This document shows positions 5,638-30,337 of a stretch of 30,956 bases of DNA, in pieces. How positions within the stretch are numbered: the stretch's first letter is position 1; each line of letters starts with the position of its first letter. The DNA comes from a virus, in IMG/VR virus record IMGVR_UViG_3300032046_000142, positions 1-30,956 of that record; one strand, given 5' to 3'. Both the position numbers and the translations under genes were made by a program. The notes beneath the pieces were generated by a model that did not search any database, was not told the origin of the DNA, and saw only the letters and a program-made list of their open reading frames with translations.

Positions 5638-5686
5638 ATTTATAAAGTTTATAATTTATTACTAACTTCTGTAATTTTAGTATAAA

Positions 5687-5759
5687 TGCCCCCGACAGGA
5701 TTTGAACCTATAACCAATCGGTTATGAGCCGACTGCTCTAACCATTGAGCTACAAGGGC
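5687..5759 (-). tRNA. tRNA with CAU anticodon (elongator Met or Ile2)
   Basis: The 73-nt cloverleaf is complete on the minus strand. Acceptor GCCCTTG pairs with CGGGGGC, with two G-U pairs. The D stem is GCTC/GAGC, the anticodon stem GTCGG/CCGAT with loop CTCATAA, and the T arm ATAGG-TTCAAAT-CCTGT. The discriminator is A73 and no CCA is encoded. The paired first acceptor position rules against an initiator tRNA. The CAU anticodon can be elongator Met or, after lysidine modification of C34, Ile reading AUA; the anticodon-arm sequence resembles Ile2 somewhat more. It sits between the scaffold-like gene and the glycosyltransferase cassette. Confidence 0.92.
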
Positions 5760-5779
5760 AAATGTATCATTAAAGGATA

Positions 5780-12390: not shown

Positions 12391-15270
12391 TTATTCAGAA
12401 AAATCAACATATTCCATTTTTTCGATACCCTGCAAGGCTTTTGTTCGTTGTGGCAATTCTGGTTTTGCGTCATTCATAGTCGCAATTGCGCCTCCCCGTT
12501 GTCTCAAGAGAAACACTAATAATGATAGAGAATCCAATGCGTCTGGGGAATGTTGCCTTGTGCGTTTGCAATAATCACCCTTGCTCTCCACGCGAACCAA
12601 GCCTTGGCCTTTCTGTTTGTATCGGCGAGCGGTTGCCTGCCTGACAAGTTCCTCGCTGCGGAATCCGGGCGATATTTTTAGATACTCAAACTCCAGATAT
12701 TTCGCCAAACCGAAAATCAATTCTGTGACAACACCAGAATAAAGCTGAGATGCTGGCAACGAATCATCACCAAGAATGTGAGTTTCAGTAGCAGCAGTTG
12801 AGTAATTCACTCCAAGAACATCTCCCCACACAGTCTTCAAGGAATCATGGATTCCAGCTCCGTTTCCTGTTCGATCAACGCATACCCAATTCGGAGCTAT
12901 ACGCATTTGCTTACAGAATCTGATAATATTTGTGGACTGCTCTAGTGTCGCGGCCTTGGGGAAAGGAATCTGTGAGTCAAGTTGTAAGACAACCTTGGGA
13001 TTCTTGTATTCCACAAATTTCCCGCTCATTGGCGTATATCCGTCAGAAAGCCCAAATCTGCCGTAGGAGCAAATTACTTGGTCATTGCCCTCCAAAGCTA
13101 AATCAAGAGCACACAGAGGCACTACAGGCCCAACAAAACGGGTAATTCCCATAGCATTGTCCATCATGCTTGGCGTAATGATTGACATCGACACACCTTC
13201 TTGCGGGAACCATCCCCTAGCCATGGTGTAATATTCTGCTGTCTTCCCTTTAGATTCATACGCCTGAAAGCCCTCGTATGTCTGAAGACCGGGAAATGCA
13301 ATCTTCTTCTCAATCACATTCTCGCATTTAGCCGCATCTAATCTTAGAACATGCCATGCATCACGGCTCTTCCACTCAAGATCATCCTCGCAGTCAATAG
13401 ATCCCCACCCTGCTACTGGCTCGCATCGCTTTCCAAATTCACTTGTCCGATCTTTTGGGTTAGATGCTCCAAAGATTTTAATTCGGCCTTTTGCGCCTTC
13501 TGTATCGGCAGCAGACAAAATGTTCTGTAAGCCTTCCCAGACACCAGCAGGAACTTCTTCAGCTTCGTCCAGCACAACATGGGTTCGACTCATTCTACCC
13601 CATTTAGGGTGGGATTTCCCACTTCTTGGACTAGGGTGAAATCCACGAAGTGTTCCAGTTCCACTATCTCCCCTTGGAACCGCGACTAGGTGAATGCCAT
13701 TCTTGGAATCATTATTTGCTTGAATAGACTTCACAAGTGTCTCACTACCTTCAAACTCTGGTCTAACCAATGCAGTAGTATAGAACTTCTTAATCGCTGC
13801 AAATACATTTCGCTGTGCGTGTTCTGCGGTAAGAGACACAACTTTAATGCAAGTATAATGTGGATCACGCATCCAATCCAACAAGAACCAAGCTGCCGCA
13901 CCGAATGTATTATGTGTTATTGTAAAGTCGGATAAAAGAAATCTTTTGTCTCCATCAAGAACGAATCCATAATATTCACCATCTCCAACTGGAGTAACAG
14001 TTATTTTTTTACCAATAGGAACTTTAACTTTTCTTTTTTCGCATTTTTTAAGCCTGCACGGGATAATTGAGCAATCTCCACTAATATGGCCTCTGTAATA
14101 TGTTCCCCATACTCCATTATTAACGCAACGCTTCCTGCATTGTTTTACGGTTACATCAAGACCAAGGCTTCTTGCAATAAATGCTATTGAATAAGCAATA
14201 TCTTTGTTTTTTTGAATATAACCATATCCCGGCCCAGCGGCATAACCATCTGCGTCAATAAATCCAGCAAGAACATTTAAACGGACATCTCTTGAATTTA
14301 ATTTGTAACAATCTGGGATTGTCTTTTCGTTATCTTTCAACGCAAAAGACATTACTTTTTTAATTGTTCCAATTCCATTAACAAAATAAACGCTCGATTT
14401 ATTGTTTGGTTGATCTGTTTTTACAATTTTACCTCCCAAGTTTTCCCAATAACTAATCCAAGAATCTCTCGTAACATCGTCCATTGTTGTTAATCCGAGC
14501 CTATCTCCTTTTCCATTTCCATCTCCAAGCCACAATCCAAAAACATAAGGCTCCATTGCAATTTCTTTTAAATCAAAATCAACACCACAAGAAACTCCTT
14601 TATAAAGATTTTTAAATTGCTTTGATGATTTAAGATATTCTTGCAATCCAATATCAATCATTTTTCCTTTTGTGTAGTTGCTTGATATTGTTTTTTTGTC
14701 TCCATTCTTCTTGTTTTCCGTGCAAACAAGAGTAAGAATATGGTCATCTGTTACTGTATATGACTCACCTCTTTCTTGATCTATGCGATACATTGGGGAT
14801 ATTCCGCTATGCAGATCGACAACATTTCTTGGTTTCCCATCTGGCCCCATCACCTTGTCTCCAATTTTTACATTTTCAACATTATTCAATGTGCCATCCG
14901 ACATGATAACTTGAGTTCCCTTCAAAAGACACTTTCCCATTGCGCCTGCACCTTGAATCAATAACTTGTCTTGCTCAAACAAGCATCGCCATGTGTTTTG
15001 ACTAGACATCGGCCTCCAGTCATACACATTCGGCCCCCAAAGAATTGTTGCTGCTGCCTCAAACTGATCCGCATCCAGCAAAGTCTGGACATAGTTTTGC
15101 ACTACTTCCTTCGCTTTTGGTATATCTAATTCGACCTTTCCTTTCACAGATGCCGCATTTAGAATGATATGCTTCGCAGCATATACAATCCCAACATCTT
15201 CGTCTCTGTCAGCCTCCTCCCTTATCTCTTCGGCTAACTTGATGATTCTACTGACGCTTCCTCCAATCAC
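12391..15270 (-). CDS. terL: Terminase large subunit (TerL) with in-frame intein
   Basis: TerL is the ATP-driven packaging motor and headful nuclease. The 959-residue precursor has N-extein residues 1-113, an intein 114-454 and C-extein 455-959, giving a mature protein of about 618 residues. The P-loop reads GAGAMGK at 107-113 and continues with T455 after splicing. Walker B is VVLDEAEEV at 565-573, the coupling motif IFGASNP at 599-605, and the RNase H-like nuclease has CALDLALEGND (Asp723), VCVDRTGNG (Asp799) and HSPDALDS (Asp910 or Asp913). A gene coupled by ATGA (15267-15270) precedes it. The insert interrupts the ATP site, so packaging requires splicing. Confidence 0.93.
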   Translation of the reverse strand: MIGGSVSRIIKLAEEIREEADRDEDVGIVYAAKHIILNAASVKGKVELDIPKAKEVVQNYVQTLLDADQFEAAATILWGPNVYDWRPMSSQNTWRCLFEQDKLLIQGAGAMGKCLLKGTQVIMSDGTLNNVENVKIGDKVMGPDGKPRNVVDLHSGISPMYRIDQERGESYTVTDDHILTLVCTENKKNGDKKTISSNYTKGKMIDIGLQEYLKSSKQFKNLYKGVSCGVDFDLKEIAMEPYVFGLWLGDGNGKGDRLGLTTMDDVTRDSWISYWENLGGKIVKTDQPNNKSSVYFVNGIGTIKKVMSFALKDNEKTIPDCYKLNSRDVRLNVLAGFIDADGYAAGPGYGYIQKNKDIAYSIAFIARSLGLDVTVKQCRKRCVNNGVWGTYYRGHISGDCSIIPCRLKKCEKRKVKVPIGKKITVTPVGDGEYYGFVLDGDKRFLLSDFTITHNTFGAAAWFLLDWMRDPHYTCIKVVSLTAEHAQRNVFAAIKKFYTTALVRPEFEGSETLVKSIQANNDSKNGIHLVAVPRGDSGTGTLRGFHPSPRSGKSHPKWGRMSRTHVVLDEAEEVPAGVWEGLQNILSAADTEGAKGRIKIFGASNPKDRTSEFGKRCEPVAGWGSIDCEDDLEWKSRDAWHVLRLDAAKCENVIEKKIAFPGLQTYEGFQAYESKGKTAEYYTMARGWFPQEGVSMSIITPSMMDNAMGITRFVGPVVPLCALDLALEGNDQVICSYGRFGLSDGYTPMSGKFVEYKNPKVVLQLDSQIPFPKAATLEQSTNIIRFCKQMRIAPNWVCVDRTGNGAGIHDSLKTVWGDVLGVNYSTAATETHILGDDSLPASQLYSGVVTELIFGLAKYLEFEYLKISPGFRSEELVRQATARRYKQKGQGLVRVESKGDYCKRTRQHSPDALDSLSLLVFLLRQRGGAIATMNDAKPELPQRTKALQGIEKMEYVDFSE
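13909..14931 (-). other. Class 1 intein with LAGLIDADG endonuclease, in the TerL P-loop
   Basis: The element is 341 residues. It starts with Cys1 (CLLKGTQVIMSDG), has the block B TVTDDH motif (Thr61, His64), and ends TITHN with His340-Asn341 followed by Thr +1, the residues needed for standard splicing. Two dodecapeptide regions lie in the middle: FGLWLGDGN at 131-139 and the well kept LAGFIDADG at 221-229, with both acidic residues present, so the endonuclease may be active. It sits between Lys113 and the Thr that completes the GxxxxGK[T/S] loop. All key residues are intact, so splicing competence is expected. Confidence 0.93.
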
Positions 15271-17228: not shown

Positions 17229-17741
17229 TTATTTATTCAAAAGCTTGTATCCATCTCTAAAGTTTCCTCGGTAAATCTCAAGTCCTTTTTTTCTCACTGT
17301 GAAAACTGACGGCTTCCCTCTATGATCCCAGCCTCCTGAAATGTCACCTTGTCCAATCTGAACCAATTCAACGCCGAACTCTTTCGCAAGTTCTATGCTC
17401 GTTATGTCTCTGTCGTAAATATCCTGATAAACCACGGTCTTGATTCCATGGCTGGCAATCGCTTTCAAACAATCATTGCATGGTAAAAGCGTAACAGCAA
17501 TCAAAGCGCATTCGTTTGGCTTCACATATCTCAACGCGTTTTGCTCAGCATGGACGATGTAGAGCCTTCACTTATCTCGATCTTGCCAATCTTCACGCAT
17601 ACCAGCAGGAAAACCGTTAAATCCTACACCTGCGACCGTATTGTCATGGCGTAACAAACAAGCCCCCACTTTTCGCCATGGGTCTTTTGATTTCTTCGCG
17701 GCAACCTTGGCAATCTCCAAAGCATATTCTTGCCAGCTCAT
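17229..17741 (-). pseudogene. dCMP/cytidine deaminase-like gene with in-frame TGA
   Basis: Reading from ATG at 17739-17741, the frame codes MSWQEYALEIAKVAAKKSKD and so on to residue 57, then meets TGA at 17568-17570 and continues open to 17229. The rest holds RLYIVHAEQNALRYVKP, with the zinc-binding His and catalytic Glu of HAE, and LLPCNDCLKAI, the PCxxC pair of deoxycytidylate deaminases. The two parts match one 170-residue enzyme of usual size with no frameshift. The first part overlaps the preceding gene by ATGA, supporting its start. Each part alone lacks half the fold. The alternatives are a nonsense mutation, sequencing error or UGA readthrough. Other genes here use TGA as stop, so recoding genome-wide is unlikely. 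Confidence 0.8.
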
Positions 17742-21891: not shown

Positions 21892-22734
21892 ATGCAAAAT
21901 CAATTAGTAGTTCACAACCAATCGGTTCAAGACATAACAGCAATGGCGCAAGCCATCACCAAGTCGGGCCTATTCGGCATCAAGACAGCAGATCAAGCCG
22001 TGGCTCTCATGCTCGTAGCACAAAGCGAAGGAAGGCATCCTGCGAGCGTTGCCAGTGAGTTTGATATCATCCAAGGCCGTCCAGCTCTCAAGAGCCAAGC
22101 GGCACTGGCGAGGTTTCAAGCAGCAGGCGGGAAAATCCAGTGGGTTGAGCGCACAGACTCCAAGGCAAGCGCGAAGTTCAGCCATGCACAAGGGGGCGAG
22201 TTGCTTGTCGAATGGACTATTGAACAAGCAAGGGATGCAGGGCTAACATCAAAGCAAACATGGAAGCAGTATGCTCGTGCCATGCTCTCGGCTCGTGTTG
22301 TCGCAGAAGGTGTAAGAGCCTGTTATCCTGCCTGCCTTAATGGCGTTTACTTGGCCGAGGAGGTTCAAGACTTCGACACCAAGCCAAGACCAGCCAAGGA
22401 GGTTATTGAACTCGTTCACGAGGCTCCTAGCGCAAAAGAAGTGCCATCCTTGCCAGAGCCTCCCAAGGAAACCACTAATAATGTCGAAATCCCTAATAAT
22501 GCGGAAATCCAAGGGGAGATTGTCGAAGGCGAAATCTCATGGGAGGCTAACTGGTGGACTCCTGAAGTTGAGGCAATGCTGGCAGATGTTAGTGAAGTGA
22601 ACGCATACCTCGTCAAGAAGGGTAAAATCAAAGATGGGCAGACTTGGAAGGACATCAAGGACGAAACTTATCGCGCAAACCTTGTAGCCAAGACCAGCAA
22701 GTTCATCGAGGCCGTTCTCAAGGCATCAAAATAA
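21892..22734 (+). CDS. Putative ssDNA-annealing recombinase (RecT/Red-beta-like)
   Basis: The 280-residue protein would anneal single strands during recombination. The central part has AVALMLVAQSEGRHPASVAS, FDIIQGRPALKSQAALARFQ, AAGGKIQWVERTDSKASAKF and KQYARAMLSARVVAEGVRAC with following YPACLNGVYLAEEVQDF; similar blocks are found in RecT-like phage proteins. The last 110 residues are a Pro/Glu-rich linker (KPRPAKEVIELVHEAPSAKE) and a short helical C-terminal domain, perhaps an SSB- or partner-binding tail. It is followed by small genes and then a PD-(D/E)XK exonuclease, the standard partner. The alternative is another DNA-metabolism protein of unknown activity. Confidence 0.55.
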   Translation: MQNQLVVHNQSVQDITAMAQAITKSGLFGIKTADQAVALMLVAQSEGRHPASVASEFDIIQGRPALKSQAALARFQAAGGKIQWVERTDSKASAKFSHAQGGELLVEWTIEQARDAGLTSKQTWKQYARAMLSARVVAEGVRACYPACLNGVYLAEEVQDFDTKPRPAKEVIELVHEAPSAKEVPSLPEPPKETTNNVEIPNNAEIQGEIVEGEISWEANWWTPEVEAMLADVSEVNAYLVKKGKIKDGQTWKDIKDETYRANLVAKTSKFIEAVLKASK

Positions 22735-22808
22735 TGGAAGATCAAGAATATCGTGCGCCATCAAGGAGCATGGATGACGAGCCGCAAGACAATCCACAAG
22801 AACAATAA
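22734..22808 (+). CDS. Tiny ORF (24 residues) coupled on both sides
   Basis: MEDQEYRAPSRSMDDEPQDN continues with PQEQ. Its ATG shares one base with the annealing-protein stop (TAATG at 22732) and its TAA shares one base with the next ATG (22808). It is polar and acidic. Whether it makes a stable peptide or only carries ribosomes to the next gene is unknown. Confidence 0.35.
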   Translation: MEDQEYRAPSRSMDDEPQDNPQEQ

Positions 22809-23032
22809 TGAAGAACACAATTACATTTGAAGGAGAGCGGACAGCAATGTCCGCCTCTGGCAACACGGAATGGTATGAGTTCACAATTACATCGACGCAT
22901 CGGATCACACGATCTGGCGCGAAGGCTATTGGAGAGGTTCACGGCATGGGTGGTCAAGACTTCTCATGCGAAGAATATAATGAAGATGGACTTCATATTT
23001 ATAAATGCAAGGCAAAATGTTACTGCGATTAA
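22808..23032 (+). CDS. Small hypothetical protein
   Basis: The 74-residue protein reads MKNTITFEGERTAMSASGNT and ends EDGLHIYKCKAKCYCD, with Cys at four positions near the C-terminus. A TITFEGERTAMSASGNTEWYEFTI-like beta segment suggests a compact beta fold. It starts coupled to the preceding tiny ORF. No family was recognised. Confidence 0.5.
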   Translation: MKNTITFEGERTAMSASGNTEWYEFTITSTHRITRSGAKAIGEVHGMGGQDFSCEEYNEDGLHIYKCKAKCYCD

Positions 23033-23056
23033 ATAAACACAAAACAAAATAGAAAA

Positions 23057-23230
23057 ATGAACGCAACACAAACAAACTGGAAAAAACACACGCGCAAAAA
23101 GAGAATGAACTCCCGCGAGAAGCATCTACTCACAGCATTGCAGGACATAGCCGCAATGGTAGTAAGTCCTAACGACACACGGGCAGACATTCTCGCTCAT
23201 GCGCTAAAAGCTATTGGGAAAATACAATGA
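23057..23230 (+). CDS. Small basic hypothetical protein
   Basis: The 57-residue protein opens MNATQTNWKKHTRKKRMNSR, very basic, then a helix HLLTALQDIAAMVV and RADILAHALKAI. It overlaps its follower by ATGA (23227-23230). Charge suggests nucleic acid contact; nothing else can be said. Confidence 0.45.
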   Translation: MNATQTNWKKHTRKKRMNSREKHLLTALQDIAAMVVSPNDTRADILAHALKAIGKIQ

Positions 23231-23370
23231 ATCTTACACTTGAAACAAAAAGAGCAATCGTGACTTCTCTCTACATTACCATAACGCATTATTGGAAACA
23301 GAGAAAATCACTAGTGAGTAGGGGATATATTAAGCAATCAATCGAAGCGATCAGAGAAATAACAAAATAG
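23227..23370 (+). CDS. Small hypothetical protein
   Basis: The 47-residue protein MNLTLETKRAIVTSLYITIT continues HYWKQRKSLVSRGYIKQSIE. The basic, helical sequence has no recognised motif. It is coupled by ATGA to the preceding gene. Confidence 0.4.
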   Translation: MNLTLETKRAIVTSLYITITHYWKQRKSLVSRGYIKQSIEAIREITK

Positions 23371-23379
23371 AAAAATACA

Positions 23380-23610
23380 ATGAAAAACACAAAAAAAAGA
23401 ACATTCGGCGATGAGATTTCATTTTATCTCGATGCAACTGGAGCAGGAAATGGAATTATTACTAATGATTCAGAAGGAGGAATGTCATGTATCATTTATA
23501 ATAAAGAACATGATGAAGTTGTAATAATACAAGAATGCAACGAAGGAGAAGCAAAAACAATGTTCTTGTATGACAATGAAATAAATGCACTTAGAGAAAT
23601 TCTGAAATGA
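23380..23610 (+). CDS. Small hypothetical protein
   Basis: The 76-residue protein holds GDEISFYLDATGAGNGIITN and GGMSCIIYNKEHDEVVIIQE, an alternating beta pattern, and ends with a helix NEINALREILK. It is similar in size and composition to the gene at 22808-23032. Its stop overlaps the next start as ATGA. The function is unknown. Confidence 0.5.
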   Translation: MKNTKKRTFGDEISFYLDATGAGNGIITNDSEGGMSCIIYNKEHDEVVIIQECNEGEAKTMFLYDNEINALREILK

Positions 23611-23714
23611 ATCCAGACCAAGTTTTATTTATTATCTGTGCTTCATTTGAAGCAGCCAAGTTCCTAATTCCAGTTGCCATTTTCGGCTACATACTAATCA
23701 GATTAAATCCATGA
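23607..23714 (+). CDS. Small membrane peptide (35 residues)
   Basis: MNPDQVLFIICASFEAAKFL is followed by IPVAIFGYILIRLNP; almost the entire peptide is hydrophobic with one helix through the membrane. It overlaps both neighbours by ATGA, so it is coupled to the exonuclease gene. Confidence 0.45.
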   Translation: MNPDQVLFIICASFEAAKFLIPVAIFGYILIRLNP

Positions 23715-24724
23715 ATATAAGACACTCATTACTGCCAAAGCTGGCAGAATGTCCTTGCTATGAGTCCAAGAAAGGCGAGGCAGGCCCAGCGGCACAGCGT
23801 GGAACATTGCTCGATGGTCGATTCCGCGAGGCATTGTCCACAGGCGAGCTTAACGAGGTTGACTTGTCCAAGGACGACATTAAAGCCGTTAAGTGGGCAG
23901 TTAAGCAGGTCAAGAAAATCGCTGGTAATAATGCGATAATCACAGACGAGAATCTTCTTAAGGTGAAGACTCCCGGCATTGACCATATCGGAACAGAAGA
24001 TTGCAGGATTCCAAACATTCAGACCAGCGGAGATCTAAAAACGGGAATCCAGCGGAGTTATTTTTCCCAAATGGCGGCATACGCATGGGGCAACATGGAA
24101 GCAAACTTCTGTGAGGAATGGACTTGTTACCTCATCTTCTGCGACCAGAAAGAAGTCGTTGAACACAAGTTCACACTAGCCAAGGCTCAAGAAGTTGTTG
24201 AGAGCATTATCAATGAATATGTGAATCCCGAAAAGCTTCCAAGCGTTTGCCAGTATTGCTCATGGTGCGCCAAGAAGGATGTTTGTCCTGCGGTTGTTGG
24301 CCCAGTAGTAGAAGCCAATCACCTGATGGACTCAACGCAAAATCTAGCCGTATTGCGCGAAGAGATTGCCAATGATCCTGTCAGGCTCTCAAGGTTCCTA
24401 GAGATTAACAAGATGTTTGAGTCTGAGCTAGTCAAGCCACTCAAGGAAATTGCCAAGGAAAAGCTGGAAGCTGGCGAGGAGCTTCAAGGTTGGAAGTTGT
24501 CGCAAGTAAAGGGAAGTGAATACTTCGATAGGCTTTCGATTGTCCGAGCTGCAATCAGCGGGAAGTGGAGCCTAGATGATCTTGTTGATGCACTAGGCGG
24601 AACAATGAGTAGCAGCACATTTCGGGAGCTTTGCGAAAAGTATCGCACTCCAGTTATCGAAGAAGAAGCAAAACGAAAAGATGGATTCTCAAAGATGATC
24701 CAAGCTAAAAATAAAAATAAATAA
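23711..24724 (+). CDS. PD-(D/E)XK exonuclease with four-Cys cluster (Cas4/RecB-like)
   Basis: The 337-residue protein has the nuclease core: KTPGIDHIGTEDC at 86-98 (Asp91 and Glu96), TSGDLKTG at 105-112 (D108-x-K110) and the following QMAAYAWG helix (120-127). CQYCSWCAKKDVC at 180-192, together with ECPCYES near residue 14, resembles the iron-sulphur Cys set of Cas4/AddB-type nucleases. It likely resects DNA 5' ends for the annealing protein encoded upstream. The C-terminal third is helical (EINKMFESELVKPLKEIAKE) and of unknown role. ATGA coupling to the membrane peptide precedes it. Confidence 0.75.
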   Translation: MNIRHSLLPKLAECPCYESKKGEAGPAAQRGTLLDGRFREALSTGELNEVDLSKDDIKAVKWAVKQVKKIAGNNAIITDENLLKVKTPGIDHIGTEDCRIPNIQTSGDLKTGIQRSYFSQMAAYAWGNMEANFCEEWTCYLIFCDQKEVVEHKFTLAKAQEVVESIINEYVNPEKLPSVCQYCSWCAKKDVCPAVVGPVVEANHLMDSTQNLAVLREEIANDPVRLSRFLEINKMFESELVKPLKEIAKEKLEAGEELQGWKLSQVKGSEYFDRLSIVRAAISGKWSLDDLVDALGGTMSSSTFRELCEKYRTPVIEEEAKRKDGFSKMIQAKNKNK

Positions 24725-24728
24725 ATAT

Positions 24729-24884
24729 ATGCCAAAATCAGAATACTACGACGATCCAGAATCATACTGGAATGAAAAGAAAGAACGAAAAGAAGCGGAC
24801 GGCAAGGAGCGTCTGGAACGATGGGAGCGACAGAACCCGAATCATGTTTATGGACAAAGTGAACTAAGGCCACCAAGAGAATGA
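24729..24884 (+). CDS. Small charged hypothetical protein
   Basis: The 51-residue protein MPKSEYYDDPESYWNEKKER is full of charged residues and Tyr/Trp. It starts four bases after the nuclease stop behind an ATAAATAT leader and overlaps its follower by ATGA at 24881. No family is recognised. Confidence 0.45.
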   Translation: MPKSEYYDDPESYWNEKKERKEADGKERLERWERQNPNHVYGQSELRPPRE

Positions 24885-25225
24885 GAATCAGAACAGGATA
24901 CAAACAGAAAAGCAGGCACAAGCTTGACGAGAACGAGAAAGAAGCAATCCAGAAGTGGGTTTCTCTTCGAAAAATTAAACCACAAGAATGGGTTGATAAG
25001 GTTAATTCGCTTCCAGACATTGCAAGGGGCCAGATTGCAAGAATGATCTGGTGGGATTTCTGGAGCGATAAGCTGGTAGCCAATCGTTGGACTGAGTTTG
25101 ACCATTGGCTCCAATTTGACTCAAGAGAGGAAACAGAGCCAGTTCCACTAGATATGATAGCTGAATGCCTCAAGGTAGTGGGTTATCCAGAATATCGTAT
25201 TAAACTTCGCCTAATGGCCTTTTAA
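24881..25225 (+). CDS. Hypothetical protein, Trp-rich and helical
   Basis: The 114-residue protein reads MRIRTGYKQKSRHKLDENEK, then KPQEWVDKVNSLPDIARGQI, ARMIWWDFWSDKLVANRWTE and ends with LKVVGYPEYRIKLRLMAF. Helix-rich with seven Trp, it has no recognised motif. It lies between the exonuclease and a run of small conserved genes. Confidence 0.5.
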   Translation: MRIRTGYKQKSRHKLDENEKEAIQKWVSLRKIKPQEWVDKVNSLPDIARGQIARMIWWDFWSDKLVANRWTEFDHWLQFDSREETEPVPLDMIAECLKVVGYPEYRIKLRLMAF

Positions 25226-25230
25226 TAAAT

Positions 25231-25422
25231 ATGGAAAATAAATATAACCCCGGATCAGTTGAAGCGATAGATGCAGGATGCACTTGCCCTGTCATGGATA
25301 ATGGTAGAGGCAAGGGATACATGGGAATGGATGGAATTTTTGTGTATAATGAAAATTGCGAATACCATTCAGAGACAATCAAGAAAGTAATTAAAGAAAT
25401 AGAATATAATGAGAAAAAGTGA
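25231..25422 (+). CDS. Small conserved phage protein with Cys/His motif
   Basis: The 63-residue protein reads MENKYNPGSVEAIDAGCTCP and VMDNGRGKGYMGMDGIFVYN, then a later NCEYHSE. AGCTCPVMDN.RG.GY and the final C..H form a pattern known from many small phage proteins and may bind a metal. The function is unknown. It begins behind a TAATAAAT leader and its end overlaps the next gene by 14 bases. Confidence 0.6.
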   Translation: MENKYNPGSVEAIDAGCTCPVMDNGRGKGYMGMDGIFVYNENCEYHSETIKKVIKEIEYNEKK

Positions 25423-25633
25423 ATTGTGGAGAATATATGTTAAGAAGAATCCATCATTTGAAGGAGATGGAAATGTCACAATGTCAGCAAGGGGATTGAA
25501 GAAGCTATTCGATACCACTTGGGACACTGCATATTACGATGGAGAAGAAGAACCTGTTGAAAAAACAAAGCAGAGTTTTCAACCAAGGTCAGCATCAATA
25601 AATGATCTAATGTCAATATTCGGAATGAAATAA
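25409..25633 (+). CDS. Small conserved phage protein
   Basis: The 74-residue protein reads MRKSELWRIYVKKNPSFEGD and GNVTMSARGLKKLFDTTWDT, a block I recall in small phage proteins of replication operons. The C-terminus is polar with an SINDLMSIFGMK ending. The function is unknown. Overlap with the preceding gene suggests joint translation. Confidence 0.55.
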   Translation: MRKSELWRIYVKKNPSFEGDGNVTMSARGLKKLFDTTWDTAYYDGEEEPVEKTKQSFQPRSASINDLMSIFGMK

Positions 25634-25637
25634 ATAT

Positions 25638-25820
25638 ATGAGCCTTATAATAAATAATAAACAATTACTTGATACAGTTGAGTCACTTGAGAAGCGAATC
25701 AATAAGCATACTGAAATACTTTCTAAGCTAGAAAAGCTAATCAAAGAATGCGCAGGATCAAGAATATCAGAGGGAGTCTCGCAAACTCTACAAGAAACAA
25801 TTAAAGAAATATACAAATGA
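25638..25820 (+). CDS. Short coiled-coil protein
   Basis: The 60-residue protein MSLIINNKQLLDTVESLEKR INKHTEILSKLEKLIKE is a helix with good heptad spacing of Leu/Ile, likely an oligomerising coil. It starts after an AAATATATG leader and overlaps its follower by ATGA. The function is unknown. Confidence 0.45.
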   Translation: MSLIINNKQLLDTVESLEKRINKHTEILSKLEKLIKECAGSRISEGVSQTLQETIKEIYK

Positions 25821-26155
25821 ACACAATACAAAAAATACTTAATCTATTTAACGAAGACAAACAACCATCACTTCCAGAGCGATTTGAGAAATACCATGTA
25901 GAAAACCCAGATGTTTACAATTGCCTTGTTTCACTTGCGAGAGAGGTATTGCAAAATAATAGAAGCAGGACGATGGGGATTGGAATGCTCTACGAAGTCT
26001 TGAGATGGAAGCATTATGTAACAACTCATGGCAGTGAGGAATACAAGCTTCCGAACGAATACAGGGCATTCTACGCTCGCAAGATCATGGAACAAGAGGC
26101 TGATCTAGCTGGATGCTTCAACACACGCAAGTCGGTTGCTGATGCTAAAATATAA
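25817..26155 (+). CDS. Conserved phage replication-operon protein
   Basis: The 112-residue protein has RFEKYHVENPDVYNCLVSLA, RTMGIGMLYEVLRWKHYVTT and LPNEYRAFYARKIMEQEADL. The F...NP.VY..L..LAR ... G...L.E..RW ... N..Y...YAR.IM..E.DL pattern is familiar from many phages and has no known function. Position before the replication initiator-like gene suggests a replication role. It overlaps neighbours at both ends. Confidence 0.6.
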   Translation: MNTIQKILNLFNEDKQPSLPERFEKYHVENPDVYNCLVSLAREVLQNNRSRTMGIGMLYEVLRWKHYVTTHGSEEYKLPNEYRAFYARKIMEQEADLAGCFNTRKSVADAKI

Positions 26156-26946
26156 TGCAATTCAAAATAGAACAATATGAGAGATGTCAATCAATGGCAG
26201 AAGGCTCTATTGAGGATCATCTCATAGGAATCACAAAGCCAACGATTGACCGAATACTCAAGATGGAAAATCCATCAGACTGCATAGCACTTTATACCTT
26301 CTATGCCTACACAAGAAAATGGCAGAAGAATAATGCTGTTTACGCGACATCTGAATATGCAATGAAGGCCATGGCTTGGGGTAGAGAAAGATTTGCCAAG
26401 GCAAAGTCACAGTTGAAGGAGGCTGGCTTCATTGAAGACATCCAGAGGAAAGATGCAGGAGGAAAAGTCATTGGTTGGTATGTTGGTGTTAAGTTTGCAC
26501 AGAACGCAACGATGGGGAATTTCTCCATTGCTGATGTTCAAGAAAACCACCCTCCGGCTTTACCACAGGGTGGTTCCACCAGAGTGTGGCTAAACCGCAC
26601 CCAAATACCTATTACTAATATTAAAATACCTAATACTGGTAAAGAAATGCAAGAGACAGTAGCAGCGCATGAGGCTTCATTGCCTTCACCCTGTGAAGTC
26701 AACAAGCCAAAAAGACAAGTTAAAGATAATAGAACAACTGAAGAATTTGTAGCTGAACTCAAGAAAATCTATGACTACATTGATATTGATGTAGAACTCA
26801 AAAGAATCGACGCTTGGCTTCTTACTCACCAAGACCGCAAGAAGACTCGCCGCTTCGTCACCAACTGGCTTAATCGAATCGAAAAACCAATGCCCAAACA
26901 AAAATCAACCCTTGGAATCACTGAAGGATACCGTCCATGTCTTTAA
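26155..26946 (+). CDS. Winged-helix replication protein or helicase loader
   Basis: The 263-residue protein has an N-terminal helical part containing LYTFYAYTRKWQKNNAVYAT, SEYAMKAMAWGRERFAKAKS, QLKEAGFIEDIQRKDAGGKV (a winged helix-turn-helix with recognition helix near 82-100, as in phage replication initiators). A low-complexity linker follows, and residues 215-250 have DVELKRIDAWLLTHQDRKKT RRFVTNWLNRI, a pattern often at the C-terminus of phage replisome-organiser proteins where the helicase is bound. It directly precedes a DnaB-like helicase and overlaps it by 10 bases. A loader is the more likely role, initiator the alternative. Confidence 0.6.
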   Translation: MQFKIEQYERCQSMAEGSIEDHLIGITKPTIDRILKMENPSDCIALYTFYAYTRKWQKNNAVYATSEYAMKAMAWGRERFAKAKSQLKEAGFIEDIQRKDAGGKVIGWYVGVKFAQNATMGNFSIADVQENHPPALPQGGSTRVWLNRTQIPITNIKIPNTGKEMQETVAAHEASLPSPCEVNKPKRQVKDNRTTEEFVAELKKIYDYIDIDVELKRIDAWLLTHQDRKKTRRFVTNWLNRIEKPMPKQKSTLGITEGYRPCL

Positions 26947-28190
26947 TCCCTATCGCAAACACAGCAGAGAACGCAGCTATCTCTCTGATCATATCAAATC
27001 CAGATTGCTATTCACAACTGCACTGGGAGCCATCGTATTTCTTCCAGAATGCCACCAGAAGCGTTTTTGAAGCAGTTGAAGCAGTCTACAGCAGAACAGG
27101 AGAGATAACAGCAATAGCGGTCATTTCAGAGCTAGAGACGAATGGGAAGCTTGCAGAGGTTGGAGGATCAAATTCCGTAATGGAGATGATCCAGACAATC
27201 TACATTGCCCCCGGCCCAGTTTCAGTTTCGATTGCTGATGACTACAGGCTTCAACTTGTAAAAGCGAAATCATACCGAGATGCAATCAAGGTTCTCTCAA
27301 ACGCAGACCGAGATATTCGTGATATGCGAATGGACTTGAGCGATCTTGCAGAGGAGATTTCCAACTGCATTATCACAGATAGCGAAATCAAGACGATCAA
27401 TCAGCACGTTGTCGAGCTAGTCGATGATCTTGAGAACAAGAACAAGTTAGACACATTCAAGACTGGAATGGTGGATCTTGATCTTGGTTTCGGAGGAGGA
27501 TTCAATCGAGGAGAGATGGTTGTTGTCGGAGCGCAAACATCAGGCGGTAAATCAATCCTACTTTACCAGATTGCTCTGGAGGCATTGCTAGATGGAAAGT
27601 CAGTTGCCATCTTCAGTCTTGAAATGCCATGCAAGTCTATCCTTCGCCGAATGGCTTCAAACCTGATTGGCAAGCGAATCGTAAACCAAGGTGACTTTGG
27701 AGATGGAACATCATTCGTTGCATCCTTCAAGGAAATTGCCAATGCGCTTCAGGCTTTAGTCAAAATGCCAATCACATTGCGCGATGATCTTTCTGAAGTT
27801 GGAGAGATTGACGCTGAGGCTCGCAGACTTGCGGCCATTAACAAAGCGGATGTAATTGTGGTCGATTACCTACAAATTGTAACGATGCCGTCAGCAGACA
27901 ATCGAGAGCAAGCAATTTCTGAATTGACTCGCAGACTCAAGCTGACAGCACTCAAGAGCCAGTCACTCGTTGTCACCGCAAGCCAGCTCAATGATGATGG
28001 AAAGCTTCGTGAGTCTCGCGCAATCGGGCATCATGCAGATCATGTTCTGAGCATCGTTCACGAAAAAAGCGGATCAACAATTTTCGTTGATAAAAATCGC
28101 CGAGGTGCTAGAGGCATTGGATTCCCAGTGAGTATGCGTGGAGAAATTTCACGCTTTGAGCAAATCGAAAAACAAGAAAAGAAAAAATGA
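26937..28190 (+). CDS. DnaB-like replicative helicase
   Basis: The 417-residue enzyme unwinds DNA at the fork. Residues 1-100 form the helical N-terminal domain (AENAAISLIISNPDCYSQLH); a linker leads to the RecA-like motor with Walker A VGAQTSGGKS at 197-206, FSLEMP (motif 1a), Walker B VIVVDYLQIV at 306-315, VVTASQLN (motif H3) and a late VDKNRRGARGIGF with Arg residues for ATP contact. The DnaB length is slightly shorter than the bacterial one (about 470). It overlaps a loader-like gene upstream and a small gene downstream (ATGA at 28187-28190), forming a replication operon with SSB-like and RusA-like genes. Confidence 0.92.
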   Translation: MSLIPIANTAENAAISLIISNPDCYSQLHWEPSYFFQNATRSVFEAVEAVYSRTGEITAIAVISELETNGKLAEVGGSNSVMEMIQTIYIAPGPVSVSIADDYRLQLVKAKSYRDAIKVLSNADRDIRDMRMDLSDLAEEISNCIITDSEIKTINQHVVELVDDLENKNKLDTFKTGMVDLDLGFGGGFNRGEMVVVGAQTSGGKSILLYQIALEALLDGKSVAIFSLEMPCKSILRRMASNLIGKRIVNQGDFGDGTSFVASFKEIANALQALVKMPITLRDDLSEVGEIDAEARRLAAINKADVIVVDYLQIVTMPSADNREQAISELTRRLKLTALKSQSLVVTASQLNDDGKLRESRAIGHHADHVLSIVHEKSGSTIFVDKNRRGARGIGFPVSMRGEISRFEQIEKQEKKK

Positions 28191-29404: not shown

Positions 29405-29499
29405 TTGAAATTATTGCAATAATCATTTCTGGATGTGGGGTTATAGCATTCCTATCTGTTATTTTTATTCTATTTTCAGATGACGACATTGAGAATTGA
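29401..29499 (+). CDS. Membrane peptide (32 residues)
   Basis: MIEIIAIIISGCGVIAFLSV is followed by IFILFSDDDIEN: one transmembrane helix with a short acidic tail. It is coupled by ATGA to its upstream gene and overlaps its downstream gene by 20 bases. The function is unknown; it is a possible small inhibitor or membrane factor. Confidence 0.4.
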   Translation: MIEIIAIIISGCGVIAFLSVIFILFSDDDIEN

Positions 29500-29911
29500 T
29501 ACGCCTGAAACACAAGAAGCCGTAGAGCGTTGGAGGCAAGGCAAGATTAACATCTTTGATGAGATGGCAAGGCTGGAACGCGAGCGGGACGATTATATGC
29601 AACGATTCAGAATTGCACTTTCCGAAAGGGATAGTTGGAAGATGCAAGCCGATCAAAAATATGCAATGCGACGAGAACTTGAAGAATTACTCGGAGTTGA
29701 TCGCAATGATGCTTCTGATGAGCAGTTTCAAAAAGGACTTGATGCTATTAAAAATATAATAGGCGAGCGCGACGAGGCGAGGCGGTCGTTAGAACACATT
29801 ACCGAATACGGAACAGAGGAAATCAATGTTGCCGTTGATCTTCGCCAGAGATTGGCAACCGCTTTAGTTGAACGCGACGAGGCAAGAGAAGCATTAAAAA
29901 TAAAACAATGA
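29480..29911 (+). CDS. Coiled-coil protein of unknown function
   Basis: The 143-residue protein starts TTLRIDTPETQEAVERWRQG and has three repeated-looking coil segments: RLERERDDYMQRFRIALSER, IIGERDEARRSLEHI and ALVERDEAREALKI. The repeated ERDEAR unit (around 95 and 132) suggests internal duplication. The composition is helical, Glu/Arg-rich. A role in replication or as a scaffold for other early proteins cannot be told. It overlaps the RusA-like gene by ATGA at 29908-29911. Confidence 0.5.
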   Translation: MTTLRIDTPETQEAVERWRQGKINIFDEMARLERERDDYMQRFRIALSERDSWKMQADQKYAMRRELEELLGVDRNDASDEQFQKGLDAIKNIIGERDEARRSLEHITEYGTEEINVAVDLRQRLATALVERDEAREALKIKQ

Positions 29912-30282
29912 ACTTCACACATTCCATTCTTAAGCAGATGGGATATAAATTAGATCCAGATGGAAACTACTCACGAACTGAAACTAATACTCCACGGGTA
30001 TCTAACCCCAAGCCTAAACCAGTTGCTAGGAAAGCATTTCCGAATACTAATGAGGGAAAAGAAAACAGCAAGAAACGCTCTTTTGTCCGCATTACGCGAT
30101 ATAGTTGCAGACCACTCGATTGCGACAACTATGCGGGAGGATGTAAGCCACTTATTGACCAGTTACGATACGCTAAACTCATCAGAGACGATGATCCAGA
30201 AAGTGTCCAGATTGAGTTCATCCAAGTCAAAGTTCCAAAGAAAACGGAAGAACGCACAGAGATTGAAATCAAGGAGTTGTAA
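29908..30282 (+). CDS. RusA-like Holliday junction resolvase, catalytic-half frame
   Basis: The 124-residue frame starts MNFTHSILKQMGYKLDPDGN and has no family resemblance until residue 56. From there SKKRSFVRITRYSCRPLDCD, NYAGGCKPLIDQLRYAKLIR and DDDPESVQIEFIQVKVPKKT match the RusA C-terminal half with the catalytic DxDN (Asp70, Asp72 in this frame) and the late Asp of the L..DDDP segment. RusA resolves crossover junctions. The N-terminal half of the fold is not in this frame but in the next ORF, which overlaps it. The start overlaps the upstream stop by ATGA, so this frame is coupled and probably translated. The product may be a truncated, two-chain or frameshifted enzyme. Confidence 0.6.
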   Translation: MNFTHSILKQMGYKLDPDGNYSRTETNTPRVSNPKPKPVARKAFPNTNEGKENSKKRSFVRITRYSCRPLDCDNYAGGCKPLIDQLRYAKLIRDDDPESVQIEFIQVKVPKKTEERTEIEIKEL

Positions 30283-30289
30283 AAAATAA
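29960..30289 (+). CDS. Overlapping ORF carrying the RusA-like N-terminal half
   Basis: In frame +2 relative to its partner, the 109-residue ORF begins METTHELKLILHGYLTPSLN and continues QLLGKHFRILMREKKTARNA with LLSAL. The L-strand, P-S-L-N-Q and K..R..A helix resemble the substrate-binding start of RusA-family enzymes (PPSxN). Past residue 48 it reads DHSIATTMREDVSHLLTSYD, which is just the catalytic region out of frame. The helix of this ORF and the strand of the other use the same bases (about 30062-30105), so a single frameshift could not make both. Either two peptides form the fold or a deletion has fused two frames. Translation of this ORF is unproven; no clear ribosome site precedes it. 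Confidence 0.35.
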   Translation: METTHELKLILHGYLTPSLNQLLGKHFRILMREKKTARNALLSALRDIVADHSIATTMREDVSHLLTSYDTLNSSETMIQKVSRLSSSKSKFQRKRKNAQRLKSRSCKK

Positions 30290-30290
30290 T

Positions 30291-30337
30291 ACCTACTATT
30301 AGAGGAAAATCACAAAATTCTCAGATAGTAGGTTTTT
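30291..30337 (+). terminator. Rho-independent terminator after the RusA-like gene
   Basis: ACCTACTAT (30291-30299) pairs with ATAGTAGGT (30325-30333) in a perfect 9-bp stem; T5 ends at 30337. The 25-nt loop has a second weak pairing (GAG/CTC). It follows the RusA-like stop closely and precedes the lipoprotein gene, so the replication message probably ends here. Confidence 0.7.

Follow-up and report, generated by a model that had tools for sequence, protein, structure and literature searches.

The window analysed here is a 30,956-nt stretch of viral DNA (positions 1 to 30,956 of the IMG/VR record IMGVR_UViG_3300032046_000142), which carries two extensively overlapping open reading frames on its plus strand. 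ORF1 (29908–30282; frame 1; 124 aa) comprises an N-terminal module, a disordered linker and a RusA catalytic half, and ORF2 (29960–30289; frame 2, that is, +1; 109 aa) comprises a RusA N-terminal half and an S/T/K-rich tail. The first-pass annotation had placed both ORFs at these positions, with the LDCDN motif in frame 1 and the N-half motif in frame 2, and our analysis confirmed this layout, LDCDN lying at 30115–30129. The start codon of ORF1 sits on the stop codon of the upstream ORF (29480–29911), forming an ATGA overlap in the sequence (29908–29911) through which the two genes may be translationally coupled. The ORF1 N-terminal module (29908–29976; MN.T..L..GY...DG.YS) is predicted by AF2 to form a helix and two short strands (H5-10 E13-15 E21-23), and the linker that follows (29977–30078) has low pLDDT and is neutral in frame 1. 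Downstream of it, frame 1 encodes the predicted strand 2 (residues 58–66; 30079–30105), the LDCDN catalytic loop and helix 2 (30115–30171; D71, D73, K80 and D84, assigned by conservation), the D94-D95 pair (30187–30192) and the predicted strands 3 and 4 (residues 100–108 and 116–123; 30205–30276).

ORF2 opens at an internal ATG (29960–29962) formed by the GAT-G of an Asp-Gly pair of ORF1, and contains TPSLNQLLGKHF (ORF at 29960–30289). Alignments, together with hhalign to the single-frame sister family introduced below, place the strand 1 region (LKLILHG) and the YLTPSLN motif at 29978–30019, with PSLN itself at 30008–30019. Helix 1, predicted by AF2 with pLDDT above 90 over most of its length, spans 30038–30115 and is followed by a basic tail (30116–30286), near-neutral in sequence and open in the clade of the window sequence. 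A hairpin with a T-run (30291–30337, plus strand; fold z −5.1), located 3′ of the ORF pair, is a probable transcription terminator, and an Rfam search downstream of the pair returned no RNA family.

Genes for a RecT-like annealing protein, an exonuclease, a DnaD-like loader and a DnaB-like helicase are located upstream on the same strand (21892–28190), a neighbourhood that fits a role of the ORF pair in recombination or replication. Several other features of the record, all on the minus strand, deserve mention. The ORF for the terminase large subunit (12391–15270) contains an intein with a homing endonuclease (PF05203, E 6.5e-23; PF05204), and the phage carries a tRNA-Met (CAT) gene (5686–5760). 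A deaminase-like gene (17229–17741), whose second part matches PF00383 weakly, is interrupted by a single in-frame TGA just before the HAE motif (DRDK*RLYIVHAEQNAL), for which readthrough, decay and error are the alternatives.

The relationship to RusA was assessed for each half separately. Residues 51–124 of ORF1 match the PHROG family of RusA-like Holliday junction resolvases (phrog_34, E 4.9e-7) as well as phrog_1682 (1e-3), and phrog_34 was matched by 43 of 65 aligned members. PHROGs alone recognised the catalytic half: searches of Pfam, NCBIfam and PDB sequences with either ORF gave no RusA match, the Pfam gathering threshold for RusA (PF05866) was reached by neither ORF nor by anything else in 16 viral records, and ORF2 alone had no family match in profile libraries including PHROGs. 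The RusA hallmark, DxD with a downstream K and DD, is present in the C-half: D71, D73, K80 and D84 are invariant in the 65 diverse members and D95 is conserved in at least 90% of them, the latter probably being the third catalytic acid, a role that we take from E. coli RusA. As yardsticks, we used canonical RusA proteins of Verrucomicrobiota (L285–L290), one of which (L290) matches PDB 1q8r with an E of 5e-17, and a single-frame phage family (Mx8 p24, Mx9, BcepMigl gp19 and BcepIL02 gp18). The C-half profile aligned to the C-half of the phage family (P 1.2e-8) and to that of canonical RusA (P 6e-6). The frame-2 N-half profile aligned to columns 5–36 of the phage family, at the homologous position (P 9e-4); this is a weak absolute match of a short profile, with a score of 21.8 compared with 8.3 ± 1.6 (maximum 13.1) in 150 column shuffles, none of which did as well. 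Against canonical RusA, the strand 1–PSxN motif alone aligned, again in the homologous place, and 3 of 150 shuffles were equally good. Thus, the RusA N-half features (strand 1, PSxN loop and helix 1) do occur here, albeit in the +1 frame, and the RusA identity previously claimed for both frames held when each was profiled on its own, through phrog_34 for ORF1 and the shuffling test for the N-half of ORF2.

Structure prediction yielded a consistent picture. For ORF1, AF2 returned an N-terminal mini-module, a low-confidence linker (27–57), a strand (58–66), a helix (72–88) and two further strands (100–108 and 116–123), with high confidence across most of the catalytic half and the order strand-helix-strand-strand (58–123). 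For the N-half of ORF2, it returned a confident helix over residues 27–52. All 65 aligned members of the ORF1 family have neither strand 1 nor helix 1 of the RusA fold. VIA-align superimposed ORF1 55–124 onto residues 52–117 of E. coli RusA (2h8c), exactly the half that ORF1 encodes, at 25% identity, the highest in its list, and with a Z of 4.7, tied with unrelated ferredoxin-like folds; the Foldseek comparison to the RusA fold gave an E of 0.83. Fold comparison by itself does not point to RusA in particular. As judged from these models, strand 2 and helix 1 are secondary structure elements doubly encoded in the same bases. The first-pass annotation had put the doubly used bases at 30062–30105; the overlap itself stands, whereas the exact span does not, the predicted strand 2 (30079–30105) lying wholly inside the coding stretch of the predicted helix 1 (30038–30115). 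Its count of 36 codons from PSLN to LDCDN agrees with the 35.7 codons that separate the starts of the two motifs (30008 and 30115).

The two-frame arrangement is not peculiar to this record. With ORF1 as the sole query, a full-length relative was found in 117 viral contigs, to which ORF2 and alignments added more, and all relatives that were read had an open +1 frame that kept the pattern GYLTPSLN.LL..HW....KEK.A..AL.SAL. For a systematic count, an HMM of the C-half collected 302 loci (136 distinct sequences), in which an HMM of the N-half then located the N-half frame. The N-half lay in the +1 frame in all 129 distinct relatives in which it was identifiable, and in none did it share the frame of the catalytic half; the remaining seven distinct sequences, with no separate N-half and weak C-half scores, are canonical single-frame RusAs and serve as controls. 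Within the main clade, one exact half-to-half spacing is shared by 254 loci (101 distinct sequences). The earlier suggestion of a conserved arrangement, with both frames open across related phages, is thereby borne out, and the uninterrupted single frame that a plain deletion would lead one to expect among relatives occurs in 0 of the 129.

Profile searches of 388 Verrucomicrobiota genomes and scans of viral sequences extended the family to distant members. One of these (L252), together with its 31 viral relatives, reads LLDEDNLCEKYHVDCCRYAGLIPDD in frame 1 and GRLPLWNAILAMHHW..........FLSAL in the +1 frame; the N-half is likewise +1 in another distant member (L251), and the most diverged lineages (L253, L334 and L338–L341) keep the same arrangement. 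MAG contigs assigned to Terrimicrobiaceae and Verrucomicrobia (L247 and L248) carry related copies, suggesting hosts in these groups. A tblastn search over 50,697 phage records detected no split relative and hence no isolate in that collection. The N-termini of ORF1 belong to at least three unrelated modules across lineages (L253, L254–L270 and the clade of the window sequence), the types being QL..LGY..DGSYS, ..LFPNAS.S...AN and a zinc-ribbon-like CxxC pair, which suggests that swappable modules are carried on ORF1 only. In addition, a subgroup (L197, L215, L216 and L233) has about 11 extra codons between the halves, so that the overlap of helix 1 and strand 2 is much smaller; it possibly represents an intermediate between the single-frame and the fully overlapped form.

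Selection was measured from tree-based counts on 98 sequences, with ancestral states reconstructed by parsimony and intervals obtained by bootstrapping over codons. Over the N-half, dN/dS was 0.21 (0.13–0.29) in frame 2 against 1.34 (0.94–2.10) in frame 1, and over the catalytic half it was 0.15 (0.10–0.22) in frame 1 against 0.77 (0.60–1.05) in frame 2. The frame-1 neutrality of the ORF1 linker is explained by its bases, which code for the N-half in frame 2. The ORF1 N-terminal module (29908–29976) is under purifying selection in frame 1 (0.35; CI 0.23–0.51), which argues that ORF1 is translated from its own start. Variation by codon position tells the same story, with a frame-1 pattern (third position free) in the first 23 codons of ORF1, a frame-2 pattern (first frame-1 position free, second and third fixed) in codons 28–55 and a frame-1 pattern again in codons 69–121. 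Between these last two blocks, at codons 56–63, both frames hold, and none of the three bases varies in the codons for Arg56 and Ile61. Within the doubly coding stretch, substitutions silent in both frames, for which there are few sites, are roughly tenfold commoner per site than those that alter both. Strong purifying selection on frame 2 thus falls exactly over the N-half, against the plain deletion that the first-pass annotation had tied to a lack of such selection.

Each of the two ORFs accordingly has its own start codon as well as purifying selection. The ATG of ORF2 is kept at a synonymous site of ORF1: Asp is encoded by GAT in 34 of 38 Asp-Gly pairs compared with 83 of 338 other Asp codons (Fisher p 3e-15), and the nine sequences that lack Asp-Gly all carry an upstream in-frame CATG at +13. 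No Shine-Dalgarno sequence precedes ORF2, a test that is uninformative here since most of the gene starts checked in the phage have none (one was seen in merely 3 of 22). Stop codons in the +1 frame are absent both over the N-half (0 compared with 16.6 ± 3.5 expected) and over the ORF2 tail (0 compared with 35.1 ± 5.1), the expectations being from synonymous shuffles of 47 relatives. Over the tail, +2 stops are as frequent as expected, and in other ORFs of the same contigs the number of +1 stops is 0.98 times that expected, which makes the depletion specific to the ORF1/ORF2 locus. The tail is dispensable in two members (L273 and L274), in which it is absent and ORF2 ends just after the helix; in the clade of the window sequence it drifts and yet remains free of stops, which is beyond what a simple two-peptide model requires.

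Taken together, these observations make it likely that ORF1 and ORF2 encode a split branched-DNA (Holliday junction) endonuclease of the RusA type, in which overlapping out-of-frame genes specify two polypeptides that assemble non-covalently. Dual coding of the resolvase halves is well supported by the comparative sequence data; from it, we infer translation of both ORFs, physical assembly, dimerisation and junction cleavage. ORF1, which starts first, would yield the N-terminal module, the disordered linker, strand 2, the DxD-K helix, DD and strands 3 and 4, and ORF2, starting at the internal +1 ATG, would supply strand 1, the PSLN loop and helix 1 that are missing from ORF1. The final portion of helix 1 and the whole of strand 2 would be decoded from shared bases in two frames. 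Most likely, a single mRNA would serve for the independent translation of both proteins, which would then complete the RusA fold by non-covalent association. RusA is a dimer that cleaves Holliday junctions, and its D70 and neighbouring residues have a catalytic role. If the completed units dimerise as RusA does, the active form would be a heterotetramer that cuts recombination intermediates. The structure of the D70N variant is deposited as ‘RusA D70N in complex with DNA’ (PDB 2h8c), and the catalysis, dimeric state and junction cleavage of RusA may carry over to the ORF1/ORF2 pair.

Two independently started proteins would suit the selection data equally well if ORF2 encoded a regulator in its own right, such as an inhibitor or a decoy that mimics the N-half of RusA, with ORF1 acting alone or with another partner. 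We consider this unlikely, given that strand 1 and helix 1 are missing from ORF1 throughout its aligned family, that the PSxN motif and helix 1 retain RusA character, and that no second RusA gene was found in 16 related viral records, some of them possibly incomplete.

Recoding is common in phages, which counts in favour of a programmed −1 frameshift from frame 2 into frame 1 that would fuse the halves into one RusA chain. The order of the frames, with the N-half in frame 2 and the C-half in frame 1, suits such a shift, and a survey lists RusA/RuvC among the genes with reported frameshifts (PMC10885494). Nevertheless, frameshifting appears very unlikely. According to the predicted structures, every slip point from frame 2 to frame 1 costs part of helix 1 or of strand 2, and because the DNA of strand 2 lies inside that of helix 1, a single frameshift cannot give a complete chain, as the first-pass annotation had argued. 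Furthermore, helix 1 and strand 2 are both selected over the doubly coding bases, an in-register slippery heptamer (X XXY YYZ) is lacking in 94 of 98 sequences, and each ORF has a start of its own, that of ORF1 leading into a constrained N-terminus and that of ORF2 being a conserved ATG. A single slip was therefore rejected on the grounds of structure and the missing heptamer.

An out-of-frame deletion or a sequencing error that wrecked a normal RusA gene is practically excluded: the distance between the halves is indeed shorter by about 10 codons than in the single-frame sister and by about 20 codons than in E. coli RusA, in line with the roughly 20 missing residues noted previously, but the same arrangement recurs in the 129 distinct sequences, which come from numerous metagenomes and represent several deep lineages, with strong purifying selection in both frames. 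Accordingly, the deletion put forward as one option in the first reading of this DNA is refuted for this clade by conservation and selection, and a sequencing error is ruled out by the number of distinct sequences alike in layout. Overlapping frames are generally correlated, the sole point for regarding frame 2 as conserved merely as a by-product of frame 1, a reading that is almost certainly wrong: over the N-half, frame 1 is neutral (1.34) and frame 2 is not (0.21), so the constraint acts on frame 2, and the first frame-1 positions vary while the second and third are fixed. Conservation and selection thus led us to reject the pseudogene, sequencing-error and by-product readings.

The other option of the first reading, two peptides encoded on the same DNA, is the one supported by the uniform +1 placement of the N-half and by selection on frame 2, their physical assembly being what the split fold would imply. 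The split resolvase could have originated through loss of the loop between helix 1 and strand 2 with compensating independent starts, a route that would produce the layout seen today; relative to the single-frame sister, the stretch between the halves is about 10 codons shorter, and the number of missing bases is not a multiple of three. Alternatively, two opposite frame changes may have flanked the N-half, which is possible because the N-terminal module and the catalytic half of ORF1 share a frame and the N-half is in another. More broadly, it is likely that one catalytic domain is here made from two independently translated out-of-frame genes with a doubly written helix and strand, forming an obligate hetero-oligomeric nuclease, and that this arrangement is of ancient date and the norm across a large phage group, phages of Verrucomicrobiota among them.

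Split enzymes are known. RusA and nested genes are likewise known, and their combination appears to be new: the literature searched contained nothing on a split or overlapping RusA, nor any case of one domain whose parts lie in two overlapping frames, with doubly encoded secondary structure. A large survey of frame transitions worked on the assumption that two overlapping genes do not share out one conserved domain between them (PMC3711429). Contrary to this assumption of frameshift and gene-fission surveys, such a division looks stable and widespread in the split resolvase, of which annotation pipelines would call at most one ORF. Other ‘truncated’ phage enzymes may hide the missing half in another frame, and the split resolvase offers a small, testable model of how a domain can be divided and overprinted while selection maintains it in two frames.

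The pair can be compared with several known systems. E. coli RusA (PF05866; PDB 1q8r and 2h8c) shares the catalytic half, with its DxD-K-helix-DD signature and strand-helix-strand-strand order, over the span in which ORF1 55–124 aligns to its residues 52–117, but it is one chain in one frame, whereas here the equivalent of residues 1–51 comes from another frame and the loop from helix 1 to strand 2 is gone. The closest single-chain relatives found, Mx8 p24, Mx9, BcepMigl gp19 and BcepIL02 gp18, align with both halves in order, but are encoded in one frame, with about 10 more codons between the halves and no dual coding. Programmed frameshift pairs, such as those of IS elements, dnaX and tail assembly chaperones, make a fused chain at a slippery site; they too occupy two overlapping frames of one gene region, but no conserved heptamer is present here and a fused chain would miss helix 1 or strand 2. 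The Rz/Rz1 spanins of lambda-like phages are encoded in two frames of the same DNA, with Rz1 embedded in the +1 frame of Rz, and their products form one complex (PMC6139136). The split resolvase resembles them in its out-of-frame genes on the same DNA, with a complex of the products suggested here by the split fold. Rz and Rz1, however, are two distinct proteins rather than halves of one enzyme domain, and in the split resolvase the order is inverted, the gene for the C-half starting before, and overlapping, the gene for the N-half.
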